Below are positions 27,477-61,754 of a stretch of DNA of 64,000 nt, piece by piece. The notes beneath the pieces were generated by a model. It was not told where the DNA came from. It saw only the letters and a program-made list of their open reading frames with translations, and made no database searches. The translations under genes were made by a program, and so were the position numbers. The stretch's first letter is position 1, and each line of letters begins with the position of its first letter. Location of the stretch: assembly GCF_003934165.1 (NCBI RefSeq), contig NZ_RKST01000001.1, positions 186,001-250,000 on the forward strand, read 5' to 3'. This DNA comes from Borborobacter arsenicus. GTDB taxonomy: Bacteria; Pseudomonadota; Alphaproteobacteria; Rhizobiales; Rhizobiaceae.

Positions 27477-27905
27477 GTGTCTGGACTTGACCTTACGCTT
27501 GACCCGGAGCGGCAGCCTCGGCGTTTCGAGGTGATCAACGGTGCTGGCGGCCGGCGTCACTGGTCGCTGGATGACAAGGCGCGGATCGTCGCGGAGACGC
27601 TGGAACCGAACGCAATCATTTCGGAAGTCGCCCGGCGTTATGGTCTCAGGCCACAGCAGGTGTTCGCCTGGCGGCGTGAAGCGCGCAAACAGGTCGCTTC
27701 GGTGCAGCAGGAATCCCCGGCCTTCGTGCCGGCGGTGGTGCCGCCTCCGGAACCCGCGCCGACGCGTCCATCACGGAAGCGAAAGACTCCCCGAGATGCT
27801 GGCGTGATCGAGCTTGAGATTGACGGTGTCGCCATGCGGGTCGGCCGGGGAGCCGACGCCAAGACGGTTGCGGCGGTGATCCGTGCGCTGAAGGCAACGT
27901 CGTGA
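27477..27905 (+). CDS. tnpA: IS66 accessory protein TnpA
   Basis: 142 residues from a GTG start. Helix-turn-helix region WSLDDKARIVAETLEPNAII then SEVARRYGLRPQQVFAWRRE, typical of the IS66/IS3-type OrfA DNA-binding protein. A Pro-rich linker (PPPEPAPTRPSRKRK) precedes the C-terminal EIDGVAMRVGRGADAKTVAA region. Its stop overlaps the tnpB start as GTGA. Confidence 0.93.
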   Translation: MSGLDLTLDPERQPRRFEVINGAGGRRHWSLDDKARIVAETLEPNAIISEVARRYGLRPQQVFAWRREARKQVASVQQESPAFVPAVVPPPEPAPTRPSRKRKTPRDAGVIELEIDGVAMRVGRGADAKTVAAVIRALKATS

Positions 27906-28258
27906 TCGGGCCGACGGGCGCCGTCAAGGTCATGGTGGCGACGAAGCCGGTGGACTTCCGCAAGGGTGCGGAGGGGCTGGCTGCGTTGGTGCGCGAGACG
28001 ATGGGCGCCGATCCGTTCAGTGGCGCAGTCTATGTGTTCCGGGCGAAACGAACGGATCGGATCAAGCTGATCTTCTGGGACGGCACCGGCGTCTGCCTCT
28101 ATGCGAAGCGGCTGGAGGATGGCGAGTTCCGCTGGCCGAAAGTGCAGGGTGGCGTGATGCGGCTGACGGCCGCGCAGTTATCGGCGCTGCTTGAAGGGCT
28201 TGATTGGCGGCGTGTCCATGAAGCCCGCCGGACCCGCGCTCCGGCGCAGGCAGGTTGA
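27902..28258 (+). CDS. tnpB: IS66 Orf2 (TnpB) protein
   Basis: 118 residues with the family-diagnostic MVATKPVDFRKGAEGLAALV, VFRAKRTDRIKLIFWDGTGV and KRLEDGEFRWPKV. Needed for IS66 transposition; molecular role not established. GTG start coupled to tnpA. Confidence 0.95.
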   Translation: MIGPTGAVKVMVATKPVDFRKGAEGLAALVRETMGADPFSGAVYVFRAKRTDRIKLIFWDGTGVCLYAKRLEDGEFRWPKVQGGVMRLTAAQLSALLEGLDWRRVHEARRTRAPAQAG

Positions 28259-28327
28259 TCCGCGACCAAATGAATCAGTCTCGATTCCGCTGTCGCCCGG
28301 AACTGGCGAATATGGTCTCATCCGATC

Positions 28328-29860
28328 ATGGCAATGACGGCGGACCAGCTTCCCGACGATCCGGATGTGCTGAAGGCGATGGTCCTGGCGCGCGATGTCG
28401 AGAATGCTCGCCTGACCCAGATCATTAAGGAATTGCAGCGTCACCGCTTCGGCCGCCGGGCCGAGAGCCTGCCCGAAGATCAACTGCTTCTTGGCCTCGA
28501 GGAGGCTGAGCAGATCGAGGCGGCAGGCGAGGAAGAGGCCGAACGTGCCGATCCTGCCGCACGCAGGGAGCGTACCGCAAAGCGGCGGACGAACCGGGGG
28601 GCGCTGCCGCCGCATCTGCCGCGCATCGAGATGGTCGTCGACATCGAGGACCATGCCTGCCCATGCTGCCGCAACGGACTTCATCGGATCGGCGAAGACG
28701 TCAGCGAACGGCTCGACATCGTGCCGGCGCAGTTGCGCGTGATCGTCGTGCGCCGGCCCAAATACGCCTGTCGTGCCTGCGAGGACGTGGTCGTGCAAGC
28801 TTCGGCACCCGCGCGGCTGATCGAAGGCGGTCTGCCAACCGAGGCGACGGTCGCCCAGGTTCTGGTCTCCAAGTATGCCGACCACCTGCCGCTCTATCGT
28901 CAGGCGCAGATCTACGCCCGGCAGGGCATCAACCTCGACCGCTCCACGCTCGCCGACTGGGTAGGCCGCGCGGCCTGGCATCTGCGTCCGGTCCACGAGC
29001 GGTTGCTGGAAAAGCTGAAAGCCTCGCCGAAACTCTTTGCCGACGAGACCACGGCGCCGGTGCTGGATCCCGGCCGCGGCAAGACCAAGACCGGGCAGCT
29101 CTGGGCCTATGCCCGTGATGATCGACCGTGGGAAGGCGACGATCCGCCGGGCGTGGCGTATGTCTATGCGCCGGACCGCAAAGCGGAGCGACCGATCGCT
29201 CATCTGGCGGGCTTTGCCGGAATTCTGCAGGTCGACGGATATGGTGGCTATCGGGTGCTCGCCGACAAGAGCGGCGCGACGCTCGCCTTCTGCTGGGCAC
29301 ACGTGCGCCGGCGCTTCTACGAGCTCGCCGCAGCCGGCCCAACACCGATCGCGAGCGAGGCGCTCCGGCGCATTGCAGAGCTCTATCGCGTCGAGGACGA
29401 CATCCGCGGCCAGCCAGCAGACGCTCGTCGTGCCGTGCGCCAGGAAAGGAGCCGGCCGATCCTGGCCGAGTTCGAGCCGTGGCTGCGCGAGAAGCTCGGC
29501 CTGATCAGCCAGAAGACGAAGCTCGCCGAGGCGATCCGCTATACGCTGTCACGCTGGGACGGGCTCGCTCGCTTTCTCGACGACGGCCGCATCGAGCTCG
29601 ACTCCAATACCGTCGAGCGGTCGATCCGCCCGATCGCGCTCAACCGAAAGAACACACTCTTCGCGGGCTCTGACGGCGGTGCCGAGCACTGGGCCGTCGT
29701 CGCTTCGCTGATCGAGACGTGCAAGCTGAACGACGTCGAGCCGCTCGGCTACCTCGCCGACGTGCTCGCCAGGATCGTCAACGGCCACCCAAATAGCCAG
29801 ATCGACGATCTCCTGCCCTGGGCCTACATCGCCACTCCCCAGCTTGAGGCCGTGGCCTGA
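28328..29860 (+). CDS. tnpC: IS66 transposase TnpC
   Basis: 510 residues. Coiled N-terminus, a Cys-rich zinc-binding part (ACPCCRNGLHRIGED and YACRACED), then the DDE catalytic domain: Asp in KLFADETTAPVLDPGRGK, Asp in ILQVDGYGGYRVLA, Glu in SNTVERSIRPIALNRKNTLF. The C-terminal domain (EPLGYLADVLARIVNGHPNS, DDLLPW) is present, so the protein looks complete. The stop lies within the right inverted repeat region. Confidence 0.96.
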   Translation: MAMTADQLPDDPDVLKAMVLARDVENARLTQIIKELQRHRFGRRAESLPEDQLLLGLEEAEQIEAAGEEEAERADPAARRERTAKRRTNRGALPPHLPRIEMVVDIEDHACPCCRNGLHRIGEDVSERLDIVPAQLRVIVVRRPKYACRACEDVVVQASAPARLIEGGLPTEATVAQVLVSKYADHLPLYRQAQIYARQGINLDRSTLADWVGRAAWHLRPVHERLLEKLKASPKLFADETTAPVLDPGRGKTKTGQLWAYARDDRPWEGDDPPGVAYVYAPDRKAERPIAHLAGFAGILQVDGYGGYRVLADKSGATLAFCWAHVRRRFYELAAAGPTPIASEALRRIAELYRVEDDIRGQPADARRAVRQERSRPILAEFEPWLREKLGLISQKTKLAEAIRYTLSRWDGLARFLDDGRIELDSNTVERSIRPIALNRKNTLFAGSDGGAEHWAVVASLIETCKLNDVEPLGYLADVLARIVNGHPNSQIDDLLPWAYIATPQLEAVA

Positions 29861-31665: not shown

Positions 31666-31685
31666 TCCGAATAACAAATTGCGGA
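31666..31685. promoter_or_regulatory. Candidate LysR binding site
   Basis: TCCGAAT and ATTGCGGA form an imperfect inverted repeat (one extra base) between lysR and the PrpD-family gene. Weak evidence from symmetry and position. Confidence 0.3.
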
Positions 31686-31771: not shown

Positions 31772-33157
31772 ATGGACAAAACCTCGCAGACCTCGCCAAG
31801 CGCGGAACTTGCCGCATTCGCCGCCAACCTGCGGTTCAAGGATATTCCAACCCCGGTCGTGGGCCGTGCCGTCGATCTCTTCGTCGATTGGGTCGGATCG
31901 GCGCTGGCCGGCAAAGGCGCACGTCCGGTCGAAACGATCGCCGCTTTTTCCAAGAGCATGGGGCCGTCGGAAGGCTTGAGCGAAATCCTCATCGACGGCA
32001 GCTTTTCCTCGCCTTTCTTCGCAGCCCTCGTCAACGGTGCGTCCTCGCATATCGCCGAGCAGGACGATGTCCACAACGGCTCGGTCTTCCACCCGGCCGC
32101 CGTGGTGTTTCCGGCCGCTCTTGCTGTCGCGCAGGCAAATCGAGCTTCAGGGCAGGACTTCATCGCCGCCGTGACGGCCGGCTATGAAGTGGGCATCCGC
32201 GTCGGAGAATTTCTCGGTCGTTCCCACTACAAGATCTTCCACACCACCGGCACGGCCGGGGCATTGGCGGCGGCGGCCGCGACCGGGCGGCTGCTCGGCC
32301 TGTCGCCCGCTTCGATGCTCGATGCCTTCGGATCTGCCGGAACGCAAGCGGCCGGCTTGTGGGAATTCCTGCGCGACGCCGCCGATTCCAAGCCCCTGCA
32401 CACCGGCAAGGCCGCCGCCAACGGCCTGGTCGCGGCCTACCTCGCGAAGGACGGCTTCACCGGCGCAAAGCAGATCCTCGAAGGCCGGCAAGGTATGGCC
32501 GCCGGCATGTCGAGCGACGCCGACCCGGCGCGCCTGACCGATCGGCTGGGAGTACGCTGGACGCTGGCGGAGACGTCGTTCAAGTTCCATGCATCCTGCC
32601 GCCACACTCATCCTGCGGCCGACGCGCTTTTGAAGGCCATGCGCGACAACGATCTCGGCATGGCCGACATCGGCAGCGTGACCACCCTCGTCCACCAGGG
32701 GGCCATCGATGTTCTGGGGCCGGTCGTTTCGCCGTCGACCGTCCACCAGGCAAAGTTCTCGATGGGAACCACGCTCGGCCTTATTGCCGCCTATGGCCGT
32801 GCCGGCATGGATGAATTCGAGAAGGGCTATGCCCGCCCGGAAGTCACCGCCTTCCGCGACCGCGTCCGCATGGTACTCGACGACGAGGTTAACACTGCCT
32901 ATCCTGCTTGCTGGATCGGCAAGGTTCTGGTCGAGACCACCGACGGGCGCAGGATAGAGGCGCGTGTTGACGAGCCGAAGGGCGATCCCGGCAACACACT
33001 TACCCGAGACGAGATCGACGGCAAGGTACGCGGTCTTGCAGCCTTCAGCGGCGCCGCCGACGTAAATGACATGGACGCCATGCTGCCTCGCCTGTGGCAG
33101 ATCGACCGCGCCAATTCGATCGGGCCGCTCATGCCGGCCCGGCCGGACGCAGGCTGA
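31772..33157 (+). CDS. MmgE/PrpD family protein
   Basis: 461 residues. Family features: LFVDWVGSALAGKGARPVET, NGASSHIAEQDDVHNGSVFH (conserved D-D-x-H region), VTAGYEVGIRVGEFLGRSHY, FHTTGTAGALAAAAATGRLL, and FKFHASCRHTHPAADALLKA. Known members are 2-methylcitrate dehydratase, cis-aconitate decarboxylase and iminodisuccinate epimerase, so the substrate is probably a di- or tricarboxylate. ATG 31772 follows AAGGAAAA. First gene of a four-gene operon with acyl-CoA dehydrogenase, CoA-transferase and acyl dehydratase. Confidence 0.92.
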   Translation: MDKTSQTSPSAELAAFAANLRFKDIPTPVVGRAVDLFVDWVGSALAGKGARPVETIAAFSKSMGPSEGLSEILIDGSFSSPFFAALVNGASSHIAEQDDVHNGSVFHPAAVVFPAALAVAQANRASGQDFIAAVTAGYEVGIRVGEFLGRSHYKIFHTTGTAGALAAAAATGRLLGLSPASMLDAFGSAGTQAAGLWEFLRDAADSKPLHTGKAAANGLVAAYLAKDGFTGAKQILEGRQGMAAGMSSDADPARLTDRLGVRWTLAETSFKFHASCRHTHPAADALLKAMRDNDLGMADIGSVTTLVHQGAIDVLGPVVSPSTVHQAKFSMGTTLGLIAAYGRAGMDEFEKGYARPEVTAFRDRVRMVLDDEVNTAYPACWIGKVLVETTDGRRIEARVDEPKGDPGNTLTRDEIDGKVRGLAAFSGAADVNDMDAMLPRLWQIDRANSIGPLMPARPDAG

Positions 33158-33197
33158 GCGGTTCCCCACACACCAGACAAGAGACCAGGACACCCCC

Positions 33198-34370
33198 ATG
33201 AGCATCAGAGACATTCCACAAGGCGAGGAAATCGGGCAGATCAGGCAGAGCGTAAGGAAGCTCTGCGAATCCTTCCCGCCGGAATATTGGCGTCAGCTCG
33301 ATCGCGATCACGCCTACCCGAGCGAATTTGTGAAGGCGCTATCCGATGCCGGCTATTTGTCGGTGCTCATCCCGGAGGAATATGGCGGCTCCGGCCTGCC
33401 GCTCTCTGCCGCCGCAGCTATCCTTGAAGAAGTGCAGCACGCCGGCGCCAACGGTGCAGCCTGTCATGCGCAGATGTATATCATGGGCGCGCTTCTGCGG
33501 CACGGCAACGAGGAGCAGAAACAGAAATACCTCCCCGGCATCGCTTCCGGTGAACTGCGCCTGCAGGCCTTCGGCGTCACCGAGCCGACTAGCGGGACAG
33601 ACACGACCTCGATCAAGACCTTCGCCAGACGAGACGGCGACCACTATGTGGTGAACGGCCAGAAGGTATGGACCTCGCGTGCCGAGCATTCAGACCTGAT
33701 GCTGCTGCTTGCCCGCACCACGCCAAAGGAACAGGCGGCCAAGCGCACCGACGGCATGTCGGTCTTCATCGTAGACATGCGCGAAGCGCTGAAGAGTGGC
33801 ATGACGATCAAGCCGATCCGCACCATGATGAACCACGCCACGACGGAAGTGTTCTTCGACAATGTGCGGGTGCCCGCCGAAAACCTGATCGGCGAGGAAG
33901 GCAAAGGCTTCCGCTACATCCTGTCGGGCATGAACGCCGAGCGTATCCTGATCGCGGCCGAATGCATCGGCGATGCCAAATGGTTTATCGAAAAGGCCTC
34001 CGCCTATGCGAGCGAGCGTCAGGTGTTCGGCCGTCCGATCGGTCAGAACCAGGGCGTCCAGTTCCCGATTGCACGCTCTTATGCGCAGATGCGCGCAGCC
34101 GAACTGATGGTCCACCAGGCCGCATCCCTGTTCGAGAAGGGGCAGGACTGCGGCGAGCAGGCCAATATGGCCAAGATGCTGGCGGCCGAGGCCTCCTGGG
34201 CGGCGGCGGAAGCCTGCGTGCAGACGCATGGCGGCTTTGCTTTTGCCGAGGAGTACGACGTGGAACGCAAGTTCCGCGAGACGCGACTTTACCAGGTCGC
34301 GCCGATCTCGACCAACCTCATCCTCAGCTATGTCTCCGAGCACGTGCTCGGCATGCCACGCTCCTATTGA
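33198..34370 (+). CDS. Acyl-CoA dehydrogenase family protein (atypical active site)
   Basis: 390 residues; start ATG 33198, since the longer frame overlaps the PrpD gene. FAD-binding FGVTEPTSGTDTTSIKTFAR and WTSRAEHSDLMLLLARTT in the middle domain; C-terminal domain with GRPIGQNQGVQFPIARSYAQ and TNHGGF-like QTHGGFAFAEEYDVERKFRE. The usual catalytic-base segment I-Y-E-G-T is replaced by LYQVAPISTN, so the general base must lie elsewhere or the chemistry differs. Acts on a CoA thioester and normally passes electrons to ETF; an etf pair is encoded at 15.6-17.3 kb. Confidence 0.9.
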   Translation: MSIRDIPQGEEIGQIRQSVRKLCESFPPEYWRQLDRDHAYPSEFVKALSDAGYLSVLIPEEYGGSGLPLSAAAAILEEVQHAGANGAACHAQMYIMGALLRHGNEEQKQKYLPGIASGELRLQAFGVTEPTSGTDTTSIKTFARRDGDHYVVNGQKVWTSRAEHSDLMLLLARTTPKEQAAKRTDGMSVFIVDMREALKSGMTIKPIRTMMNHATTEVFFDNVRVPAENLIGEEGKGFRYILSGMNAERILIAAECIGDAKWFIEKASAYASERQVFGRPIGQNQGVQFPIARSYAQMRAAELMVHQAASLFEKGQDCGEQANMAKMLAAEASWAAAEACVQTHGGFAFAEEYDVERKFRETRLYQVAPISTNLILSYVSEHVLGMPRSY

Positions 34371-34380
34371 GGCCTCGCCG

Positions 34381-35499
34381 ATGCTTCCGCTCCAAGGATT
34401 GCTGGTTGTCTCCATCGAGCAGGCCGTTGCCGCACCGACCTGCACCCTGCGCCTGGCCGATGCCGGCGCGCGGGTGATCAAAATCGAGCGCGCGGAGGGT
34501 GAGACCGCTCGCCACTACGACAAGGCCGTGCACGGCACGAGCGCCTATTTCGCCTGGCTGAATCGCGGCAAGGAGAGCACCGTGCTCGACATCAAGGACA
34601 CGGCCGACCGCGCCTTGGTGGAAAGGCTGGTCGCCAAGGCGGACGTGTTCGTGCAGAACCTTGCTCCGGGCGCAGCGCAGCGGCTCGGGCTTGGCTCTGC
34701 CGATCTTGCGGCACGGTTCGAACGGCTGATCGCCGTCGATATCGTTGGCTACCGGCAAGATAGCGTCGCCCGCGACATGCGCGCCTACGACATGCTGATC
34801 CAGGCCGAAAGCGGGATCTGTGCCGTCACCGGTACGCCGGAAACACCGGTCAAGGTCGGGGTTTCGATGGCAGATGTGATGACCGGCGTCAACGCCCATG
34901 CCGCGATCCTGGAGGCGCTGATCGAGCGCTCCCGGACCGGGAGAGGCAAGGCGATTGAAATCGCCATGTTCGACGCCATGGCCGACATTATGAGCGTCCC
35001 GCTGCTTCACCACGACTATGGCGGCAGGGCAACACCGCGCACCGGCCTCGCCCACGCCGCGATCTTTCCTTACGGCAGTGTCGCCTGTCGCGACGGCGAG
35101 ACCGTCATAGTGGTCCAGAACCCAGGCGAATGGCGCCGCTTTTGCGAAGGCGTGCTCGATCGGCCGGACCTCATCGACGATCCGCGCTATTGCGACAACC
35201 CGAAGCGTGTCGAAAATCGCCTGGCGCTGGGCAAGATACTGGCCGCGATATTCGGACAGCTGACGCGGGCGCAGGCAATCGAGAGGCTGGAGGCAAACAA
35301 GCTGGCCTGGTCCAATGTTTCCACGGTCGCCGACCTTTCCAACCATCCGGCGCTGCGTCGCGTTTTGGTGGAGATACCGGGTGGCTCCTTCGACGGCGTC
35401 GCTTCGCCAGTGCGCCGGGAGATCAAGGGCGGGCCGGTGCCAGCACTCGGCGCGCATACGGATGAAGTGCGACAGGAATTTGCGGAGGGAACGTCGTGA
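34381..35499 (+). CDS. CoA-transferase family III (CaiB/BaiF)
   Basis: 372 residues. N-terminus LLVVSIEQAVAAPTCTLRLA and GARVIKIERAEGETARHYDK are typical. The catalytic Asp lies in RAYDMLIQAESGICAVTGTP. The C-terminal part has RTGLAHAAIFPYGSVACRDG and the WSNVSTVADLSNHPALRRV region. It moves CoA between acids or within a mesaconyl/itaconyl-type dicarboxylate. ATG 34381 lies 10 bases after the acyl-CoA dehydrogenase, and its stop overlaps the next start as GTGA. Confidence 0.93.
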   Translation: MLPLQGLLVVSIEQAVAAPTCTLRLADAGARVIKIERAEGETARHYDKAVHGTSAYFAWLNRGKESTVLDIKDTADRALVERLVAKADVFVQNLAPGAAQRLGLGSADLAARFERLIAVDIVGYRQDSVARDMRAYDMLIQAESGICAVTGTPETPVKVGVSMADVMTGVNAHAAILEALIERSRTGRGKAIEIAMFDAMADIMSVPLLHHDYGGRATPRTGLAHAAIFPYGSVACRDGETVIVVQNPGEWRRFCEGVLDRPDLIDDPRYCDNPKRVENRLALGKILAAIFGQLTRAQAIERLEANKLAWSNVSTVADLSNHPALRRVLVEIPGGSFDGVASPVRREIKGGPVPALGAHTDEVRQEFAEGTS

Positions 35500-36359
35500 G
35501 CATGGTAGATACCGATTATCTTCGGCAATGGATCGGCCGCAAGGAGCGGATTTGCGAAACCATTACGCCAAATCTGGTTGAACGGTTCGAGGCGACGCTG
35601 GGCAGTTCGGCGCACCGCATGCCCGATGCCGCGCCGCTTGCCATCCACTGGTGCCTTGCACCGCCGGCCGTGCCTTCGGATGAACTCGGCTCCGACGGAC
35701 ACCCAGCGCGCGGTGGCTTCCTGCCGCCGGTGCCGCTGCCGCGTCGCATGTGGGCCGGGGGAAAAATGGCCTTTCACCATCCGCTGCGTGCTGGCGCAGA
35801 GGTGACGCGCGCCTCGCGCATTGCCGATGTGACCCACAAGACCGGGCGTAGCGGAGAACTCGTCTTCGTGACCGTCGAGCATTCCATCGAGAGCGACGGG
35901 AAAACCGCCATTACGGAGCGCCAGGACATCGTCTACCGGAACATGGAGGAAGCAGCGAAGGGCCCTGCCCCTTCGCGGCGCCTCGATGCGTCGGCGCCGA
36001 AACCTGCACAGACTGCCGATCACACAGAGACGGTCGAAGCCACCACGACGCTGCTGTTCCGCTATTCGGCGCTTACCTTCAACGGTCACCGCATCCACTA
36101 CGATCTCGACTATGCGCGCGATGTGGAAGGCTATCCGGGTCTCGTCGTGCATGGCCCCCTCCAGGCGACGCTGATGCTGCACATGGCAGCGCGGCTCCAC
36201 GAGGGGCAACAGCCGCGGGAAGTCTCGTACCGCGGAGTATCGCCGCTGTTTCACGGCGCGGCTTTCACCGTCAATGCGAACCGTACGGCCAATGGCATCG
36301 ATCTGTGGTGCGCCGACCGGCAGGGTATCGCGACGATGAACGCTTCAATTCAATTCTAG
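35496..36359 (+). CDS. Acyl dehydratase, FAS1-like/MaoC (mesaconyl-C4-CoA hydratase-like)
   Basis: 287 residues, GTG start overlapping the CaiB stop. A FAS1-like N-terminal hot-dog (PPVPLPRRMWAGGKMAFHHP) is followed by a C-terminal hot-dog carrying RYSALTFNGHRIHYDLDYAR and EGYPGLVVHGPLQATLML, the hydratase active-site block. This two-domain form is shared with mesaconyl-C4-CoA hydratase and related HTD2 enzymes. In the operon it would hydrate an unsaturated CoA ester formed by the dehydrogenase or transferase. Confidence 0.9.
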   Translation: MSMVDTDYLRQWIGRKERICETITPNLVERFEATLGSSAHRMPDAAPLAIHWCLAPPAVPSDELGSDGHPARGGFLPPVPLPRRMWAGGKMAFHHPLRAGAEVTRASRIADVTHKTGRSGELVFVTVEHSIESDGKTAITERQDIVYRNMEEAAKGPAPSRRLDASAPKPAQTADHTETVEATTTLLFRYSALTFNGHRIHYDLDYARDVEGYPGLVVHGPLQATLMLHMAARLHEGQQPREVSYRGVSPLFHGAAFTVNANRTANGIDLWCADRQGIATMNASIQF

Positions 36360-36541: not shown

Positions 36542-37435
36542 ATGAATTTTCGAGAAATCGTCGCTTTTCGCGCTGTCATTTTCACGAACTCGATAACCCG
36601 TGCGGCAGAGGTGCTCAATGTCACCCAGCCGGCGGTGAGCATGCTCATTTCAAATCTCGAAGAGTCCTTGGGGTTCAAACTTTTCGAGCGACGCCAAGGC
36701 CGGATATTTCCCACGCCCGAAGCGCTGCTGCTTGCCGACGAAGCCGAGAAAACCTTCGAGAGCCTTTCCAATCTGAAGCGTCGCGCCGACCAGATCGCCC
36801 GGCGTGGCGTCGGCAGCCTGCGCATCGCTTCCATATATGGACCGGCAATGCATCTGCTGCCGTGCGTGGCGGCTGCTTTCTCGCGCAGCCATCCCGAGGT
36901 GAACGTCTCCATTGTCACGCGCGAATCCAAGCGTATCCAGGAATGGATGGCAACACAGCACTACGATCTCGGCATAGCGGAGATGCCAACCGAACCGAAT
37001 CCGCTCCTGCATTTCGAGGCGTTACCGCAGCGGCTTGTCTGCGTCCTTCCGGCAGGACATCCCCTCGCCGACAGGGAAATCCTCACGCCCGGCATCCTTG
37101 ACGGCCAGCCCATCGTGACCATGCCGGTCTGGCATCACTCGACCGTTTCCCTCGAACGGGCCTTCGCCGAGGCTGGAGCACGGTTCAACCGCGCCTTCGA
37201 GGTCGATATGTTTTCGGTGGCTCTGGAACTCGTTGCCCACGGCGCAGGACTGGCGCTGGCGGACCCGATCAACCTGCTGGCCGCGCAGAGCGACGCAATC
37301 GCCGTCCGGCCGTTCGAGCCGGTAATCCATTTCGATCTTGCACTTTTCTTTCCTGCCCAGCGTGCCCGCTCGCTGGTAGCAGAAGAGTTTGCGCATTTGC
37401 TGCGCAAGGAACTGGCCTCGGTTCCTGGGCTTTAG
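36542..37435 (+). CDS. LysR-family transcriptional regulator
   Basis: 297 residues. HTH: MNFREIVAFRAVIFTNSITR, AAEVLNVTQPAVSMLISNLE, LGFKLFERRQGRIFPTPEAL. The effector domain begins SLRIASIYGPAMHLLPCVAA and ends in AHGAGLALADPINLL. Similar to regulators of opine/amino-acid use (OccR-like N-terminus). It is downstream of the acyl dehydratase on the same strand but 182 bases away, and converges with the hyu genes, so its target is uncertain. Confidence 0.9.
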   Translation: MNFREIVAFRAVIFTNSITRAAEVLNVTQPAVSMLISNLEESLGFKLFERRQGRIFPTPEALLLADEAEKTFESLSNLKRRADQIARRGVGSLRIASIYGPAMHLLPCVAAAFSRSHPEVNVSIVTRESKRIQEWMATQHYDLGIAEMPTEPNPLLHFEALPQRLVCVLPAGHPLADREILTPGILDGQPIVTMPVWHHSTVSLERAFAEAGARFNRAFEVDMFSVALELVAHGAGLALADPINLLAAQSDAIAVRPFEPVIHFDLALFFPAQRARSLVAEEFAHLLRKELASVPGL

Positions 37436-37598: not shown

Positions 37599-39245
37599 CT
37601 AGGCGCTTTGTCCCTCTACCCGATCGGCGGGATCGCCCCAGCCGCCGCCGCCCGAGCTTTGGAGGCGGATGACCGCGCCCTTGCCGGGCGTGAGAGCCAA
37701 CGCCTTTGGCGGCAATGCGGTTTCCCGGTCGGTTCCCGGATTAAGATGGGAGCCGGCCGCCTGCCCCGGAGCACCGCCGGCCTCGCCCCACGGGCGGGCA
37801 TAGTCGCGCATCTGCTGGACATAGACGTTCACGTTGACGCCGTCGCACAGCAATTCATATTCACGCCTCAGCGCCATGCCGCCCTCATGAGCACCCTTGC
37901 CGCCGGAGCCCTCGACCAGTTCCGTGCGAAGGACGCGGACAGGGCTCGCCGTCTCCATGATTTCAGCCGACAGGATTGAGCAATTGCCACCATGTGTATC
38001 GATGGCATTGAGGCCGTCGCCCTGGGCAGTCGCACCGCTGCCGCCCCCCATGATGTCGGTGATGATGAAATAGGGAGCCTCACCATTTGCATTGCGGCGT
38101 TCCGGCCTGGTGTCGAAACCGCCCGCTTTGACGGCGGGGAAGGATATCTGCGAACCGGCATAGCCAGCCACGCCGGGCATCCGGCAAAGTGCGCGCAGCA
38201 CAACTTCGGCGACCGCCTGCGCGGCATAGTGCCGGCTGCCGACCGCAGCGGGGCGCTTGGGGTTCAGCACCGAGCCACGCGGCGCGATGACATGGATGGG
38301 GCGCATGAAGCCGCCATTTTGCGGACTATCGGGGGCAAAGGCTGTCTTTACCGCGTAGCTGGCCAGCGACACTGTCGAGGCATAGGGACAGTTGAGCGCA
38401 TTGGCCCGCTGGTCGCTGGTACCGGAGAAGTCGACCTGGATGCACCCATCCGAAACGCTGGCACGGCAGACCATCGTGATGGGTTCGTCAGAGGCAATCT
38501 CATCCTCGATCTGCACCGTGGCGCTGACGACGACGCCTTCGCGCTCACGAAGGGCGGCGGTCATGTAATTTTCGCCATAAGCGAGAACGGCATCGTTCAG
38601 TTGCAGGAACAAATTCGTTCCGTAGCGTGCCGCAAGCTCCTTCAATCTTCTCTCGGCAGTCCGGCAACCCGCGATCTGCGCGCGCAGGTCTCCGAGCGAG
38701 GATTGCGGATGTCGCACATTCGCCGCCAGCATGCGGAAAAGATCGTCGTTGGGAACGCCTTTGCTGACAAGGCGCAGCGGCGGGAAGATGAGGCCCTCCC
38801 CAAACACTTCAGTGTTGTCCGGCGCAGTCGTGCATGGCGTCTTGCCGCCGATATCGACGTGATGGGCGATGGTCGCGGCGATCGCCACCAGTTTTCCATC
38901 ATGAATCACCGGGCTGAACAGTACGATATCCGGAGTATGCGTGCAGCCCTGATAGGGGTCATTGCAGATAATGGCATCGCCGTCTTCCCACGTCTCCAGC
39001 GGGATGACCTTGACGACGTCGCGGCACGCAACCTGCAGGATGCCGAGTTGCGCGGGGATCGTCTCTGCCTGGGCCAGGATTTCGCCGTCCGGCGAAAGGA
39101 TGGCGCAGGAATAATCATACATGTCCCAGATGATCGAGGAGTAGGAAGCCCTGCGCAGCGACGCGGACATTTCCTCCGCGATGCCGATCAGCCGGCGCTG
39201 GAAAATATCGCGGGTCAGCGCGTCGAATGTCGTTTTCTCGTTCAT
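37599..39245 (-). CDS. hyuB: Hydantoinase B / oxoprolinase family protein
   Basis: 548 residues from ATG 39245, one base after the hyuA stop; a longer frame into hyuA is rejected. Conserved blocks: FQRRLIGIAEEMSASLRRAS, YSSIIWDMYDYSCAILSPDG, DAIICNDPYQGCTHTPDIVL, TIAHHVDIGGKTPC, and near the end RTELVEGSGGKGAHEGGMAL. Partner of HyuA in ATP-dependent opening of cyclic amides (hydantoins, 5-oxoproline) or, in relatives, in ATP-dependent ketone carboxylation; context favours the amide role. Confidence 0.93.
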   Translation of the reverse strand: MNEKTTFDALTRDIFQRRLIGIAEEMSASLRRASYSSIIWDMYDYSCAILSPDGEILAQAETIPAQLGILQVACRDVVKVIPLETWEDGDAIICNDPYQGCTHTPDIVLFSPVIHDGKLVAIAATIAHHVDIGGKTPCTTAPDNTEVFGEGLIFPPLRLVSKGVPNDDLFRMLAANVRHPQSSLGDLRAQIAGCRTAERRLKELAARYGTNLFLQLNDAVLAYGENYMTAALREREGVVVSATVQIEDEIASDEPITMVCRASVSDGCIQVDFSGTSDQRANALNCPYASTVSLASYAVKTAFAPDSPQNGGFMRPIHVIAPRGSVLNPKRPAAVGSRHYAAQAVAEVVLRALCRMPGVAGYAGSQISFPAVKAGGFDTRPERRNANGEAPYFIITDIMGGGSGATAQGDGLNAIDTHGGNCSILSAEIMETASPVRVLRTELVEGSGGKGAHEGGMALRREYELLCDGVNVNVYVQQMRDYARPWGEAGGAPGQAAGSHLNPGTDRETALPPKALALTPGKGAVIRLQSSGGGGWGDPADRVEGQSA

Positions 39246-39246
39246 G

Positions 39247-41286
39247 TCAGGCTGCCTTGATACGAATGAAACCATGCTCGACCCCCTCGGCAACCTGCCC
39301 AGGCAACACCACGGTGGTGGAGTCATATTGCTGAATGATGGCCGGTCCCTCGACGGTCGAACCGGGGCCAATATCGTCCCGGAGATAGATGGGCGTGGGA
39401 TGCGCCGCTCCGCCGATCTCAAAGAACAGATCTCGCGTCCCGGCAGGCTGCGGGTTGCCGGCCTCGCCATGCTGCCCAAGGGTCGGCTTATCGAGAACGC
39501 CTATCGCATCGATACGCAGATTGGTGATCTCGACGGTCGCGTCCGGGTTGGCATAGCCATAGGCCAGGTCATGCGCCTCATGGAAGCGCGCAGCGATGCC
39601 ACGGGCATCCGGCAGCGTGCTGACCGAACCGTCAGCCAACACCACGTTGATCTCGTGATACTGACCCTGGTAGCGCTGGTCCGCCGAAAACAGGATGCGC
39701 TGCCGATCAGTTGCGATACCGTCACGCGAAAGCTGCTCGCGCAGTTCGTTCTCGGCCGCCAGAAGTATTCCCGAAAGGGCGGCCGGATCGAGGTTGGCGA
39801 GCTGTGTGGGGAACGGGATCTGCTTGTGGTGGCGGATATCGGCGAATTGCAAGCCGATTGCCGCGAATACGCCGGGCGTCGGCGGCACGATGAGTTCGCG
39901 CAGGCCGAGATCCTGGACGAGGAAGGAGCCGAACAGCCCACCCGCCCCGCCAAAGGCCAAAAGCGCAAATTCGCGCAAATCATACCCGCGCTCCATGGCC
40001 AGGGTGCGGATTGCTTCGCCCATATTGGCATTGGCAATAGCGAACATTCCGAGTGCCGCGTCCTGAGTGGAGCGGCCCAGCGGCCCGCCGACCTCCTGGT
40101 CGATGGCTTGTGCAGCAGCTTCCACCGACAACTCGATGCCGCCAGCAAAGGCCTTCGAGTCCAGATAGCCCAGCACCAGGGCGGCGTCGGTCAGGGTCGG
40201 CTTGGTCCCGCCCCGGCCATAGCAGGCCGGGCCAGGCACTGAGCCGGCCGATTGCGGCCCGACATGCAGCGCGCCGCCACGATCCACCCGGCCGATCGAT
40301 CCACCGCCAGCCGAAATGGCCGTGATGTCGAGCGTCGGCGATCGCAACGGAAGCCCGTCCACGTCGCGGCCACGGCTCAACATCGCAGCACCCCGCGAGA
40401 TGGTCGCGATGTCGGCAGAAGTTCCGCCAATATCGAGCGTAACCAAGTTCTCGACGCCGAGCGCCCGACCGGCCTCGACGGCAGCGATCACGCCTCCTGC
40501 CGGGCCGGACATCAGCATTGCACAGGGATTCTGGCGCGCCGAATCTGGTGTGGCGACGCCGCCATCGCTGCGCATATAGACGAGTTTTGCATACATGCCC
40601 GCCTTCGCGACGGCATCCTCGAGTGCCTTGGTATAACGCGCAACGGGCGGCCCGACATAGGCGCTGGCAGCGCTGGTATTGGCGCGCGGATATTCCTCGA
40701 TCTGCGGATTGACGTCGCAGGAAAGGAAGATCGGAATATCCGGGAAGCGCTCGCGGATAGAAGCCGCCAGCGCACGCTCATGAGTGTCGTTTGCGAAGCT
40801 GAAAAGAAGCGATACTGCAATCGCCTCCGGGCGCCGGGCGGCGATCTCAGCCAGAATGCGCTCAATCTCGTCAGAAGACAGCGGCTCGACAATCTTGCCG
40901 AAAGCATCGATGCGCTCGCTCACCTCCGCCACCTGCGAACGAGCGACCAGCGGCACCGGCTTCTGCGCAGTCAGGCTGTAGATATGCGGGCGCCGCTGGT
41001 GGGCAACCTCCAATATGTCGCGAAAGCCGCGCGTCACCAGGAGCAGCACATCAGCGCCGGTGCGCGTGATCCAGGCATTGGTGGCGATGGTGAAGCCGTG
41101 GACGAACAGGTCGATATCCTCGATTTTAGCCTGTGCCCGAGCAGCAAGCTGCTTCAACCCATGCATGACGCCCTCGGCAGAGCCTGGGGTCGTTGGCGCC
41201 TTCTCCATCCAGCGCTGGCCCGAGCCGTCGTCCACCAGAACGAGATCCGTGAAAGTTCCGCCAACGTCTACCGATAATCTGAGCAT
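39247..41286 (-). CDS. hyuA: Hydantoinase A / oxoprolinase family protein
   Basis: 679 residues from ATG 41286 (GGAATGGGA upstream). N-terminal ATPase motif LSVDVGGTFTDLVLVDDGSG, then SQVAEVSERIDAFGKIVEPL, EEYPRANTSAASAYVGPPVA, the central MSGPAGGVIAAVEAGRALG, LDIGGTSADIATISRG and SAGGGSIGRVD nucleotide/metal-binding blocks, and GYANPDATVEITNLRIDAIG near the end. ATP-dependent cyclic-amidase subunit working with HyuB. The 225-base gap upstream, shared with the divergent FAD oxidoreductase, should hold both promoters. Confidence 0.94.
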   Translation of the reverse strand: MLRLSVDVGGTFTDLVLVDDGSGQRWMEKAPTTPGSAEGVMHGLKQLAARAQAKIEDIDLFVHGFTIATNAWITRTGADVLLLVTRGFRDILEVAHQRRPHIYSLTAQKPVPLVARSQVAEVSERIDAFGKIVEPLSSDEIERILAEIAARRPEAIAVSLLFSFANDTHERALAASIRERFPDIPIFLSCDVNPQIEEYPRANTSAASAYVGPPVARYTKALEDAVAKAGMYAKLVYMRSDGGVATPDSARQNPCAMLMSGPAGGVIAAVEAGRALGVENLVTLDIGGTSADIATISRGAAMLSRGRDVDGLPLRSPTLDITAISAGGGSIGRVDRGGALHVGPQSAGSVPGPACYGRGGTKPTLTDAALVLGYLDSKAFAGGIELSVEAAAQAIDQEVGGPLGRSTQDAALGMFAIANANMGEAIRTLAMERGYDLREFALLAFGGAGGLFGSFLVQDLGLRELIVPPTPGVFAAIGLQFADIRHHKQIPFPTQLANLDPAALSGILLAAENELREQLSRDGIATDRQRILFSADQRYQGQYHEINVVLADGSVSTLPDARGIAARFHEAHDLAYGYANPDATVEITNLRIDAIGVLDKPTLGQHGEAGNPQPAGTRDLFFEIGGAAHPTPIYLRDDIGPGSTVEGPAIIQQYDSTTVVLPGQVAEGVEHGFIRIKAA

Positions 41287-41511
41287 ACGTGTCCCATTCC
41301 GATCGTTGCAAAGGCGGCAGGACGCCGCATCGAGACACAACGCTAAATCGACGGGCTCCATAAGAAAAATCGAATAAGCTGATCAGAACATCAGGAGCAC
41401 TTATGTCCTTGACGACATCATAAGCTCCCCTGATCAAGGCATCAGAATGCACGATTTCTGCTGATCGCTGGGCCTGACTATCATGTGCCCCGAAAAGGGA
41501 GGCAGACATTC

Positions 41512-42804
41512 ATGGGCCAGATCAACCTCAAGATGCCGAACTCGTTGTGGGCATCGACCGCCACGCCGGCAACGGAACGCGCACAGTTGCGGGGGGAGCA
41601 TCGGGCCGATATCGCGATCATCGGTGCGGGTTTCTGCGGTCTTTCGGCTGCGCTGCATTTGGCGGAAGCGGGAATCGAACGGATCGTTCTGCTCGACGCG
41701 GCCGAACCCGGTTGGGGCGCTTCCGGTAGAAATGGCGGCCAGGTGGTTCCCGGTTTTCGTTCGGATCCCGACGACATCATCGCGCGCTATGGATCGGAAA
41801 CAGGCAAGAAGCTGATCGCCGCGTCGGCCGAAGCGGCCGATCTCGTCTTCGAACTCATCGACAACTACGGCATCGATTGCGATGCTCGTCGTAACGGCTG
41901 GATCCAGTGCGCGGCCGGCCCGCGTGGGCTGGAAGCTGTACAGCATCGTGCCGCGCAATGGCAGCAGCGTGGCGCCGACATATCACTGTTGACTGAGCGG
42001 GATTTGACCTCGCTGACCGGTGTTCATGGATATGTCGGAGGCTTCATCAATCGGCAGGGCGGCCAGATCAACCCGCTCTCTTATGTGCGCGGCCTCGCCG
42101 TGGCCGCAGAAAGCCTCGGCGTCTCGATCTTCTCCAGTAGCCCGGCGCGGCGACTTGAACGCGTCGGGACACGCTGGGAGATTGCTACACCAGAAGGCGT
42201 TGTCAGGGCACATCGGGTCATTGTGTGCACGAACGCGCATACCGACGGGTTGTGGCCAGGGCTACGACGCACTCTCATCCCGATCGTGAGTTCCGTTGTT
42301 GCCACGGAGCCCCTGCCCGCCAGCCTCAGGGCGACCATACTTCCCGGCGGACATTCCGTGGCCGATACCAGACGACTGATTTCATGGTTCGGCATCGATC
42401 GCGACGGACGGGTGATCCTTGGCGGGCGCGGCGCCCAATCCGGCAAGGACAGGCCTAATGAATTCCGAGCGGTGGAACAGCGTCTATACAGGGCGTTCCC
42501 CGCATTGCGTGACGTTGCAATTTCCTTTCGCTGGAGCGGCCTCGTCGCCCTGACGCTTGATCACCTGCCGCATGTGCATGAGTTGGCTGCCGGGCTTTTC
42601 GCCGGGATCGGCTTCAACGGACGCGGTGTGGCCATGGCAACCATGATGGGCAAGTCGCTTGCCGAGCGTGCGATGGACCGGCACCCGGATTCGCTGCCCC
42701 TGCCCGTTGTGCCGGTTAGCGGCATACCCTTCCACGCCTTTCGGGCGCTCGGCCTCGCCGCCGCCCTTCAAGGCAAGAAGCTCCAGGATATCTTCCTGCC
42801 CTAG
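41512..42804 (+). CDS. FAD-dependent amine/D-amino-acid oxidoreductase (DadA/PuuB-like)
   Basis: 430 residues from ATG 41512, with AGGGAGG nine bases upstream; the GTG at 41485 is less likely. FAD site IAIIGAGFCGLSAALHLAEA near residue 40, then GWGASGRNGGQVVPGFRSDP, a signature of the gamma-glutamylputrescine/sarcosine oxidase branch of DAO enzymes. The C-terminal FAD cap reads WSGLVALTLDHLPHVHELAA and GFNGRGVAMATMMGKSLAER. Oxidises an amine or amino acid to the imine with H2O2 or quinol formation. A close paralogue is at 60477-61754. Confidence 0.92.
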   Translation: MGQINLKMPNSLWASTATPATERAQLRGEHRADIAIIGAGFCGLSAALHLAEAGIERIVLLDAAEPGWGASGRNGGQVVPGFRSDPDDIIARYGSETGKKLIAASAEAADLVFELIDNYGIDCDARRNGWIQCAAGPRGLEAVQHRAAQWQQRGADISLLTERDLTSLTGVHGYVGGFINRQGGQINPLSYVRGLAVAAESLGVSIFSSSPARRLERVGTRWEIATPEGVVRAHRVIVCTNAHTDGLWPGLRRTLIPIVSSVVATEPLPASLRATILPGGHSVADTRRLISWFGIDRDGRVILGGRGAQSGKDRPNEFRAVEQRLYRAFPALRDVAISFRWSGLVALTLDHLPHVHELAAGLFAGIGFNGRGVAMATMMGKSLAERAMDRHPDSLPLPVVPVSGIPFHAFRALGLAAALQGKKLQDIFLP

Positions 42805-58425: not shown

Positions 58426-59664
58426 TTAGTCGATTACGATCAAGGGGAACGGCTGCTCGGAGAGCATCAACGCCTCATCCTGCTTGAACAGGAAGGATTC
58501 AATCGTGAAGTACTGCCCCACGAAGCGTGGCAGGAAGAACTGATTTTCGTAGTTCACCGCAGTGCCCGGCTCAAACAGCCGATCCGCATTAATCTCGGAG
58601 AGCGGGTCAAAAATGAAATTGCCGACCCAGTCCGGCGGGAAGGAAATTCCCATTTCGTAGCCGCCGATCCAGCCACGCTCACCCCAAAGCCCTTCCTCGA
58701 TGAAGTAATTCATCATCGTTTCGTTGAACTCGCGTACCGGCAGGTTTGGACGCAGGACGCCGCGTATCAACTCCATGGAGTGAGCCACCCTGTTGGCGAC
58801 ATCGGCCACATCCGCATCAGGCTCGCCGGTCGAGAAGGTTCGCGCCATGTTGATGTGATAGCGCTTGTGCACGCCGCAGAGGTCCACGAGGACCAGCTCG
58901 CCCTTGCCGATCTTCCTGCGCGTGGCAAGGCCATGATGCGCATTGGTCTTGGACCCGGACAGGACAGGCATCGTAATGCTAGGGTTTTCACCGCCGGCTG
59001 CCGCCATCGCCCGTACGATCTCGCCATAGACCTCGAGTTCGGTGACTCCTGGACGGATCGTAGCTTTGGCGGCCGCCATGCCGATATTCGCGATTCTGGC
59101 AGCCTCTTCCAGGCAGGCGATCTCGGCCGGCGATTTGACCCAGCGCTGCTCGCGCAGGATATCGGTCCCGTCGACAACCTTCACGCCCGCAGCCTCGAAG
59201 GCGGCCTGATGCTGCCCTCCAATGACCCTGTTTGGCCGGTAGCTTCGATATTCAAGCCCAACGGTTCCCTTCAGCCAGCCTTCGGCTTTGAGCTGATCGA
59301 CAACAAAATCGATGCTGCCGCGCAGAATGTGACGCGGGAAAAACCGGGTGTCGGTCGAGCGCGTGAAAACGCGGCCGAGCACGGCCTCACGCTCGCTGTC
59401 GAACAGAATGTATTTGTCGTGATCGACGTGAACGGCAATGCCTGAACTGGCCGGCCACTGGCTTGGCGATTGCGCCTGATACCAAAGTGCCTGGTAGCCC
59501 GACATGTAGAACATGCTTTCCGGAGCAGTGAGGAACAGCATGTCGACACCCGCCGCAGCCATGCGGCCACGCAGCTTGGTCAGACGGTCACTGAACTCCT
59601 GATCCGAGAACGGCGCTTCATTCTCTGGCTGACTCTTGAGGTAGACCTCGTCACGATATTCCAC
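58426..59664 (-). CDS. M24-fold hydrolase (Xaa-Pro peptidase / creatinase / DoeA-like)
   Basis: 412 residues from GTG 59664, which has GGAGGAA five bases upstream; a TTG at 59682 is less likely. The creatinase N-domain (FSDRLTKLRGRMAAAGVDML) is followed by the pita-bread domain. Metal-site comparison: first Asp kept in ELVLVDLCGVHKRYHIN, second Asp replaced by Asn (HINMARTF), G-H-G-x-G replaced by GYEMGISFPPDWVG, and Glu present in NYENQFF and FTIESF. The GISFPPDW block recalls ectoine hydrolase DoeA/EutD. Probably an amidohydrolase on a small compound rather than a peptidase. First gene of the transporter operon. Confidence 0.88.
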   Translation of the reverse strand: MEYRDEVYLKSQPENEAPFSDQEFSDRLTKLRGRMAAAGVDMLFLTAPESMFYMSGYQALWYQAQSPSQWPASSGIAVHVDHDKYILFDSEREAVLGRVFTRSTDTRFFPRHILRGSIDFVVDQLKAEGWLKGTVGLEYRSYRPNRVIGGQHQAAFEAAGVKVVDGTDILREQRWVKSPAEIACLEEAARIANIGMAAAKATIRPGVTELEVYGEIVRAMAAAGGENPSITMPVLSGSKTNAHHGLATRRKIGKGELVLVDLCGVHKRYHINMARTFSTGEPDADVADVANRVAHSMELIRGVLRPNLPVREFNETMMNYFIEEGLWGERGWIGGYEMGISFPPDWVGNFIFDPLSEINADRLFEPGTAVNYENQFFLPRFVGQYFTIESFLFKQDEALMLSEQPFPLIVID

Positions 59665-59697
59665 TGCGCTTCCTCCATGCAACTTTTCACAGGACTA

Positions 59698-60476: not shown

Positions 60477-61754
60477 ATGCAAATACCCGAGATGGGAGAT
60501 TCCCTATGGTACCGTACAGTCGGCGAGCCCGTAGTCATCGACCCTGACCTCACCGAGAATCTGCAATCCGATGTAGTGATAGTCGGAGCGGGGTATACAG
60601 GATTGAGCACAGCCCTTCACCTGGCTGAAGGCGGCTATTCGGTCGCCGTGATCGAGGCGAAGCAGGTTGGGTGGGGCGCTTCAGGCCGAAATGGCGGCCA
60701 GGTGATACCGGGACTGAAACTCGACCCGGATGACCTGGAGCGACGGTTCGGCGCCGCTCTCGTGGAGACAGCCGGCGCCACGGCCGATCTTGTATTCTCC
60801 CTCATCGAAAAACATAGCATTCAATGCGAGCCGAGGCGTGCAGGCTGGATACAGGGTGCACATTCGCCACGTGCGCTCAAGGCACTGAACGGGCGGGCAG
60901 AGCAATGGGCCCGCAGGGGAGCTTCCGTCGATTTTCTCTCGGCAGCGGAGACTAAGGCGCTGACCGGGACTGACGTTTATTGCGGCAGCCTGATCGACAG
61001 GCGAGCAGGAACCATTCAACCCCTTGGCTATGCCAGAGGCCTGGCACGCGCTGCGCGGCAGGCAGGCGCTCAGATCTTCGGCAAGTCGCCAGTGCTTTCC
61101 ATCAGCAAGGTACCGGGCGGCTGGCGCTCGAATACCGCCGGCGGGTCTGTCTCATCGACTCATGTCGTAATCGCCACCGATGCCTACAGCGACCGGCTAT
61201 GGCCCGGCCTGGCAAATTCCTTTCTTACGGTAAGAAGCATCCAGATGGCGACGAAACCGCTCGGCAAGATCGCGGAAGAGATCCTGCCGACTGGCGCCTG
61301 CGTTTCGGAGAGCCGCAAGCTTTCCTATTACTTCCGGCGGGATGCGGCAGGGCGCTTTCTCATTGGCGGTCGCGGCCCGATGCGGGAGGAAAAAAGCGCG
61401 GAAGGCATGTTTACCGCGCTGCGGAGCGCCATCCAGCAAAGATATCCAGCGATCGCCGATTGCGAAATCGAACATCAGTGGTCGGGCAAGGTCTCGCTCA
61501 CCATCGACCAGTTGCCGCACATCCATGAGCCGGCCCCCGGCATTCACATCGGCCACGGCTACAATGGCCGCGGTATTGCTGTCTCAACCTTGATGGGCGC
61601 TTTGCTGGCCGACCGAATCGCCGGCGGCCCGATGCACTCATTGATCCCGCCATCGCCATTGCAGGCAATCCCCTGGCATAGAATCCGTCAACCATTGCTG
61701 ACGGCTGCCATCGGCTATTACCGTCTCAAGGATGCCCTTGGTTTTGGTTCCTGA
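60477..61754 (+). CDS. FAD-dependent amine/amino-acid oxidoreductase (DadA/PuuB-like)
   Basis: 425 residues. FAD site VVIVGAGYTGLSTALHLAEG near residue 35, GWGASGRNGGQVIPGLKLDP, and C-terminal WSGKVSLTIDQLPHIHEPAP and GYNGRGIAVSTLMGALLADR. Clearly paralogous to 41512-42804, sharing SLW near the N-terminus and the same motif spacing. Followed after 51 bases by an amidase and then an LhgO-like oxidase, forming a plus-strand operon divergent from the XRE gene. ATG 60492 is an alternative start. Confidence 0.93.
   Translation: MQIPEMGDSLWYRTVGEPVVIDPDLTENLQSDVVIVGAGYTGLSTALHLAEGGYSVAVIEAKQVGWGASGRNGGQVIPGLKLDPDDLERRFGAALVETAGATADLVFSLIEKHSIQCEPRRAGWIQGAHSPRALKALNGRAEQWARRGASVDFLSAAETKALTGTDVYCGSLIDRRAGTIQPLGYARGLARAARQAGAQIFGKSPVLSISKVPGGWRSNTAGGSVSSTHVVIATDAYSDRLWPGLANSFLTVRSIQMATKPLGKIAEEILPTGACVSESRKLSYYFRRDAAGRFLIGGRGPMREEKSAEGMFTALRSAIQQRYPAIADCEIEHQWSGKVSLTIDQLPHIHEPAPGIHIGHGYNGRGIAVSTLMGALLADRIAGGPMHSLIPPSPLQAIPWHRIRQPLLTAAIGYYRLKDALGFGS

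Follow-up and report, generated by a model that had tools for sequence, protein, structure and literature searches.

The window, by which we mean the whole 64,000-nucleotide stretch of Borborobacter arsenicus DNA that was analysed (NZ_RKST01000001.1; genome contig C1:186001-250000), harbors four plus-strand open reading frames (ORFs) spanning 31772-36359, each of them open and full length (Table 1). They encode, in order, an MmgE/PrpD-family protein, an acyl-CoA dehydrogenase, a CaiB-type class III coenzyme A (CoA) transferase, and a FAS1-like, two-hot-dog hydratase, all with Pfam domains above the cut-offs. The gaps between them are only 40 bp and 10 bp, followed by a 4-bp overlap, so that translational coupling of the four genes is plausible. 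ORFs, spacing and Pfam agree with the first-pass annotation of this DNA, which had described a coupled, LysR-controlled operon of four genes of these enzyme classes; it had also noted that no citramalyl-CoA lyase gene was present, and Pfam finds no gene of the corresponding family, PF03328 (HpcH/HpaI), in the operon or in the 64-kb window. We conclude that the operon is very probably msi-mcd-ict-ich, four members of the five-gene itaconate-methylsuccinate cluster of Pseudomonas and Cupriavidus, an orthology that rests on sequence, with the enzyme activities inferred from assayed relatives.

Table 1. Features of the operon, its surroundings and the distant candidate gene pair (window positions, unless a contig or locus is named).
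Feature	Position	Strand	Remarks
IS66-type insertion element, three genes	27477-29860		upstream of LysR gene
LysR regulator, divergent from operon	30706 to about 31617	-	Pfam HTH_1 and LysR_substrate
putative LysR operator	31668-31682	+	degenerate GCAAT-N5-ATTGC inverted repeat between lysR and msi
predicted msi (MmgE/PrpD)	31772-33157	+	461 aa; Pfam MmgE_PrpD_N/C
predicted mcd (acyl-CoA dehydrogenase)	33198-34370	+	390 aa; Pfam Acyl-CoA_dh domains
predicted ict (CaiB/CoA-transferase III)	34381-35499	+	372 aa; Pfam CoA_transf_3
predicted ich (FAS1-like, two-hot-dog hydratase)	35496-36359	+	287 aa, GTG start; Pfam FAS1_DH_region
second LysR gene	36542-37435	+	Pfam; downstream of ich
HyuB/HyuA (hydantoinase/oxoprolinase-like) and divergent DAO-family oxidase	37599-42804		beside operon
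RipB-like MaoC and RipC-like CitE pair	C1:133.3-134.7 kb (L043 7335-8665); CitE 133.8-134.7 kb		about 83 kb from operon

In the part of PMC12290011 (2025) consulted, Msi, Mcd and Ict of P. aeruginosa and C. necator are assayed enzymes: the cluster's MmgE/PrpD protein acts as an (S)-(R)-methylsuccinate isomerase and showed no activity on cis- and trans-aconitate, itaconate, mesaconate and citraconate, the dehydrogenase takes both enantiomers of methylsuccinyl-C4-CoA, and the CoA-transferase strongly favors (R)- over (S)-methylsuccinate. Matching growth genetics in P. putida are given in the consulted part of PMC9875883. In the window operon, Msi would convert (S)- to (R)-methylsuccinate, Ict would activate (R)-methylsuccinate or itaconate with succinyl-CoA as the CoA donor, Mcd would oxidize methylsuccinyl-C4-CoA to mesaconyl-C4-CoA, and Ich would isomerize itaconyl-CoA and hydrate mesaconyl-C4-CoA to (S)-citramalyl-CoA, which a lyase encoded elsewhere would cleave to acetyl-CoA and pyruvate. 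The predicted chemistry is equal to that of the P. aeruginosa/C. necator cluster as far as (S)-citramalyl-CoA. As P. aeruginosa reference we used a locus from a plasmid collection (L036; gene order ich-mcd-VOC-msi-ict-ccl-TRAP), a stand-in for PA0878-PA0886 that was equated with it by gene order and product names, not by PAO1 sequence. Identity to this reference is 61% for the window Msi, 65% for Mcd, 43% for Ict, 45% for Ich and 46% for the divergent LysR. The two clusters thus share four of five enzyme orthologues, the LysR neighbor and the Msi catalytic residues, and they differ in that the window operon has the order msi-mcd-ict-ich with LysR divergent, has no TRAP transporter or VOC gene, and encodes Ict and Ich proteins at the low end of these identities.

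The MmgE/PrpD protein scored 792.6 bits on a profile of 35 Msi sequences from five-gene clusters, built with the window's clade omitted, and is therefore predicted to be an (S)-(R)-methylsuccinate isomerase (Msi). On this profile the training sequences range from 788 to 874 bits, 57 further loci from outside the clade from 663 to 834, and four distant MmgE/PrpD proteins from 247 to 294. The 35 loci behind the Msi, Mcd, Ict and Ich models were picked for having all five gene families, so that training rows score high by construction, and the 'alpha' score set retains duplicate loci. In a tree of 112 Msi sequences made with a quick method (L047, L055, L059, L061 and L062 omitted as same-genome duplicates, L070 lost as a fragment), the window protein falls inside an 18-row clade with a Shimodaira-Hasegawa-type approximate likelihood ratio support (SH-aLRT) of 93, nested in a 25-row group (SH-aLRT 91) that also holds seven Burkholderia/Paraburkholderia rows. 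Its gene adjoins that of the predicted methylsuccinyl-CoA dehydrogenase. His107, Tyr153 and Lys271 of the window protein align with His102, Tyr148 and Lys266 of P. aeruginosa Msi, the proposed catalytic residues.

The remaining three proteins also point to this cluster. The acyl-CoA dehydrogenase, predicted to be a (RS)-methylsuccinyl-C4-CoA dehydrogenase (Mcd), is 77% identical to the Mcd of a Mesorhizobium cluster and matches P. aeruginosa Mcd with 513 bits in BLAST, compared with 222 bits in phmmer for the highest-scoring solved structure of a different acyl-CoA dehydrogenase, whose scoring differs from that of BLAST. The CaiB protein, a predicted itaconate/(R)-methylsuccinate CoA-transferase (Ict), is 61% identical to the Mesorhizobium cluster Ict; in G070, G038 and G210, three genomes with an ict at the msi locus, it is closest to this cluster ict (61, 46 and 44%, respectively), with the next CaiB at 34-36%. 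For the FAS1-like protein, a predicted itaconyl-CoA hydratase (Ich) of the P. aeruginosa type, the solved-structure matches are 8khg, the best and named itaconyl-CoA hydratase, and 8huc. The sole match to it at E 1e-15 or better in the same three genomes is the cluster ich, and its own genome contains no other full-length match.

Some observations weigh against these assignments, or against a simple transfer of substrate from the assayed enzymes. The proposed catalytic His/Tyr/Lys of Msi recur in all nine distant relatives checked, and because distant MmgE/PrpD proteins share them they are no proof of Msi function and failed as a discriminator from other MmgE/PrpD proteins. On the cluster models, window Mcd scores 692.8 bits (training minimum 721.3), Ict 467.5 (training range 522.4-750) and Ich 343.5 (training minimum 351.8). 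All three are therefore diverged members whose substrate preference may have drifted. Even so, the identities, the Msi tree and the Msi model lead us to reject, by orthology to assayed enzymes, the candidate new pathway put forward in the first-pass annotation: the genes fit msi-mcd-ict-ich by sequence, tree position and neighborhood, and the homologues belong to another pathway, the outcome that the annotation had itself named as counting against its idea. The link it had drawn to branched C5 dicarboxylates is upheld.

What sets the operon apart is the fifth cluster gene, ccl, encoding (S)-citramalyl-CoA lyase, which was recognised beside the operon in only one of the 18 clade loci. The exception, L079 of Ciceribacter naphthalenivorans, reads lysR(-) msi-ccl-mcd-ict-ich, and thus shares clade, divergent LysR and otherwise the gene order of the window, differing in the ccl between msi and mcd; in the other 17, mcd directly follows msi. 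The four-gene set is found in 9/18 loci (the window, L046, L080, L052, L054, L056, L057, L084 and L060), three are without ict (L050, L083 and L058, in whose genomes another CaiB protein, 48-49% identical, lies elsewhere), two are without ich (L048 and L051), and contig ends truncate another three (L053, L081 and L082). The gene order is kept among relatives, and the arrangement is therefore not accidental. Gene presence at all loci was read from tblastn searches whose queries were limited to proteins of P. aeruginosa, Mesorhizobium, Comamonadaceae and the window. Because all seven Burkholderia/Paraburkholderia loci of the neighboring group carry ccl, its loss in the window clade is the simpler reading; alternatively, ccl may have been gained in Ciceribacter. 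Outside the clade, too, there are sets of ict, ich, mcd and msi in which ccl was not recognised (e.g. L085, L087 and L067), and in a comparison set of 61 loci with at least 5 kb on both sides, drawn from the 80 top-scoring of at least 563 relatives, ccl lies within 7 kb in 39/61 and all five genes are present in 28/61. The consulted part of PMC12290011 places 36.4% of isomerase genes in five-gene clusters, the rest being without at least one gene, so that incomplete clusters as such are already known; our literature search found no description of a ccl-less alphaproteobacterial cluster. What we describe is a known pathway in a lyase-less arrangement that is new and conserved, and it adds an alphaproteobacterial variant to a pathway that was described in 2025 and is known chiefly from beta- and gammaproteobacteria.

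The divergent LysR gene recurs with 64-81% identity in L046, L047/L080, L048, L053, L054, L057, L059/L084, L060, L079 and L082, and together with a conserved inverted repeat its position suggests that it probably controls the operon. Among 14 intergenic regions compared, GCAAT-N5-ATTGC is matched at 10/10 positions in L057, L060, L070, L079, L082 and L084, at 9/10 in L053 and L054, and at 8/10 in the window, L046, L047 and L048; the region in P. aeruginosa also reaches 8/10, and L040, which has a different LysR, only 5/10. Since 94 of 2000 single-base shuffles of the window intergenic region reach 8 or more of 10, the evidence for an operator lies in the kept position and not in the window copy. 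Likewise, the pattern with two mismatches arises by chance in 28 of 100 window shuffles, so only its conserved place counts. Genome-wide, the exact sequence AATAACRAATTGC occurs once only, at this operon, and seven more sites differ from it by one mismatch. The second LysR, which aligns with the LysR of the P. aeruginosa cluster over 162 aa at just 30% identity, is not among the neighbors that recur in at least three of the 18 clade loci, and probably stands outside the conserved unit.

The first-pass annotation had allowed that the pathway might depend on genes elsewhere, and this alternative we accept as right: a lyase encoded at another site likely finishes the pathway. Searches with Pfam PF03328, P. 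aeruginosa Ccl and a seven-sequence Ccl model found no close Ccl orthologue in the genome, a further difference from the P. aeruginosa/C. necator cluster. PF03328 has four matches, at C1:133.8 kb and on contigs C17, C14 and C6, and the best matches to P. aeruginosa Ccl are 38% identical at C1:133.8 kb and 36% at C17:82.9 kb. Across 25 msi genomes (assemblies 91-100% complete), all of which gave some match to the Ccl model, a P. aeruginosa-type Ccl above 300 bits was found in none of the 16 same-family genomes with a window-type msi (including G031, where a contig end truncates msi), the highest score being 203 bits; three of the other nine (G067, G210 and G123) exceed 300 bits. As the finishing enzyme we would most likely name the RipC-like CitE protein on C1, or else the CitE-like lyase on C17. 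The best NCBIfam model of the C1 protein is RipC_Ccl and that of the MaoC protein preceding it is RipB_Ich, a likeness to RipABC-type clusters, and a stand-alone CitE-like protein, Rv2498c, is a demonstrated (S)-citramalyl-CoA lyase in the consulted part of PMC6689899. RipC-like proteins (E 1e-60 or better) are present in 16/16 genomes with a window-type msi, compared with 142/297 sampled genomes of the family, a count that includes a few paralogues of lower identity (44-50%). Counted by genus, they are present in 9/9 vs 58/109, with a hypergeometric P of 0.0025 that ignores kinship. A MaoC gene directly adjoins the RipC-like gene in 12 of the 15 further genomes with the operon (13/16 with the own genome). 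A point against the RipC-like candidate is the existence of the second CitE-like protein, on C17, whose best solved matches are a malyl-CoA/beta-methylmalyl-CoA lyase and a mitochondrial CitE-like protein.

Several further points tell against the C1 pair. It scores far under the equivalog cut-offs (RipB_Ich 128 vs 340 bits, RipC_Ccl 172.5 vs 375), P. aeruginosa Ccl too failing the latter with 157.7 bits, and it differs from a RipABC-type cluster in lying so far from the operon; no RipA-type transferase was seen among the ORFs around it, which were inspected by eye with no family-library run. The three genomes with no adjacent MaoC all belong to one genus. An operator-like site was not found at the pair, so co-regulation with the operon is not supported. 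A takeover of the Ich role by RipB-like proteins could have been read from the two ich-less genomes, G214 and G105; these carry other Ich homologues (52% and 49%), which weakens that argument. In G089, a 92% complete assembly in which a contig end truncates the operon, there was no Ich match at E 1e-15.

The operon itself appears to be accessory and horizontally moved, as suggested by its distribution within the genus (no PrpD match at E 1e-60 in three other same-genus genomes sampled), the nearby IS66-type element, and a G+C content of 0.636-0.648, somewhat above most of the window. We tentatively propose a split pathway, possible if somewhat doubtful in this specific form, in which a mobile-looking operon shed its lyase and settles only where a core RipB/RipC-like MaoC-CitE pair cleaves (S)-citramalyl-CoA. 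This would be a concrete proposal for the CitE/MaoC pair, whose CitE has relatives in roughly half of the family genomes sampled. If true, it would assign a role to a hydratase-lyase pair that much of this family of Alphaproteobacteria has conserved.

An explanation that keeps the same enzyme assignment and differs in the last step only is that the operon is complete as it stands: Ict would recycle CoA from (S)-citramalyl-CoA to new itaconate or methylsuccinate, releasing (S)-citramalate, and the route would serve detoxification or export instead of growth. The missing ccl at 17 of 18 clade loci and the lack of any Ccl-model match above 300 bits in the 16 window-type genomes are what such a route would leave behind, and if the lyase is truly missing, the operon would be a citramalate-forming detoxification route. 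We nevertheless regard it as unlikely, given two CitE-like lyase candidates in the genome and, in the consulted part of PMC9875883, the requirement of Ccl for growth on methylsuccinate by P. putida equipped with the cluster of P. aeruginosa; moreover, the cycle needs ict, yet three clade loci are without it, the other CaiB proteins of those genomes lying elsewhere.

It is less likely still that the CaiB protein, hydratase and dehydrogenase have shifted to a different branched dicarboxylate, and we extend that same low joint probability to the variant in which the dicarboxylate derives from a lactam or imide through the neighboring HyuA/HyuB and amine-oxidase-like genes. The low scores of Ict and Ich on the cluster models hold for the whole clade and would suit a shift, as would the HyuA/HyuB homologues that flank the operon both here and in the genomes of five relatives, namely L051 (HyuB only), L052, L055 (equal to L083), L058 and L064. 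Set against this, conservation with the assayed enzymes is strong for Msi and Mcd, and the HyuA/HyuB neighbors are just 27-42% identical, i.e. different paralogues, and stand on the opposite strand beyond the second LysR gene. With 13 HyuA-family matches in the genome, much of the adjacency is explained by chance or shared ancestry, and the hydantoinase neighbors did not persuade us as a clue to the substrate. Finally, the tricarboxylate or cis-aconitate role given to the PrpD protein in the first-pass annotation, i.e. a new aconitate-linked pathway with PrpD as dehydratase or decarboxylase, is very improbable: the protein belongs to the PrpD family and matches solved chains named IRG1 and cis-aconitate decarboxylase at family level, but it reaches 41.5 bits vs a cut-off of 950 on the NCBIfam 2-methylcitrate dehydratase model (NF042438), and it groups with the isomerases whose assayed members were inactive on both aconitates in the consulted part of PMC12290011.

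Further along the window, a second DAO-family oxidase (60477-61754), which shares 42% identity with that at 41485, lies near an M24 creatinase/prolidase-like peptidase (58426-59682).

Beyond the clade, the isomerase and dehydrogenase genes combine with varying partners. The loci L071 (4763-10072), L073 (6058-10382) and L074 (6006-11602) have an Mcd that is 77-82% identical, plus ccl and ich, with ict also in L071 and L074 and a partial ict at the locus edge in L073; their MmgE/PrpD proteins are just 36-38% identical to Msi and score 247-294 bits on the Msi model, making them a candidate second lineage of methylsuccinate isomerases. Genes for Msi, Mcd and Ich with no recognised ict are found in L037 (1-8362), L039 (6971-15350), L065 and L066, the latter two mapped for cluster genes only, and the Msi proteins form a tight branch. 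In L037 and L039, from Nitratireductor and Roseibium, the Msi set adjoins a biotin-carboxylase gene and genes for a 3-hydroxy-3-methylglutaryl-CoA (HMG-CoA) lyase, a short-chain dehydrogenase/reductase (SDR) and a 'citryl-CoA lyase', apparently a different use of the methylsuccinate enzymes.

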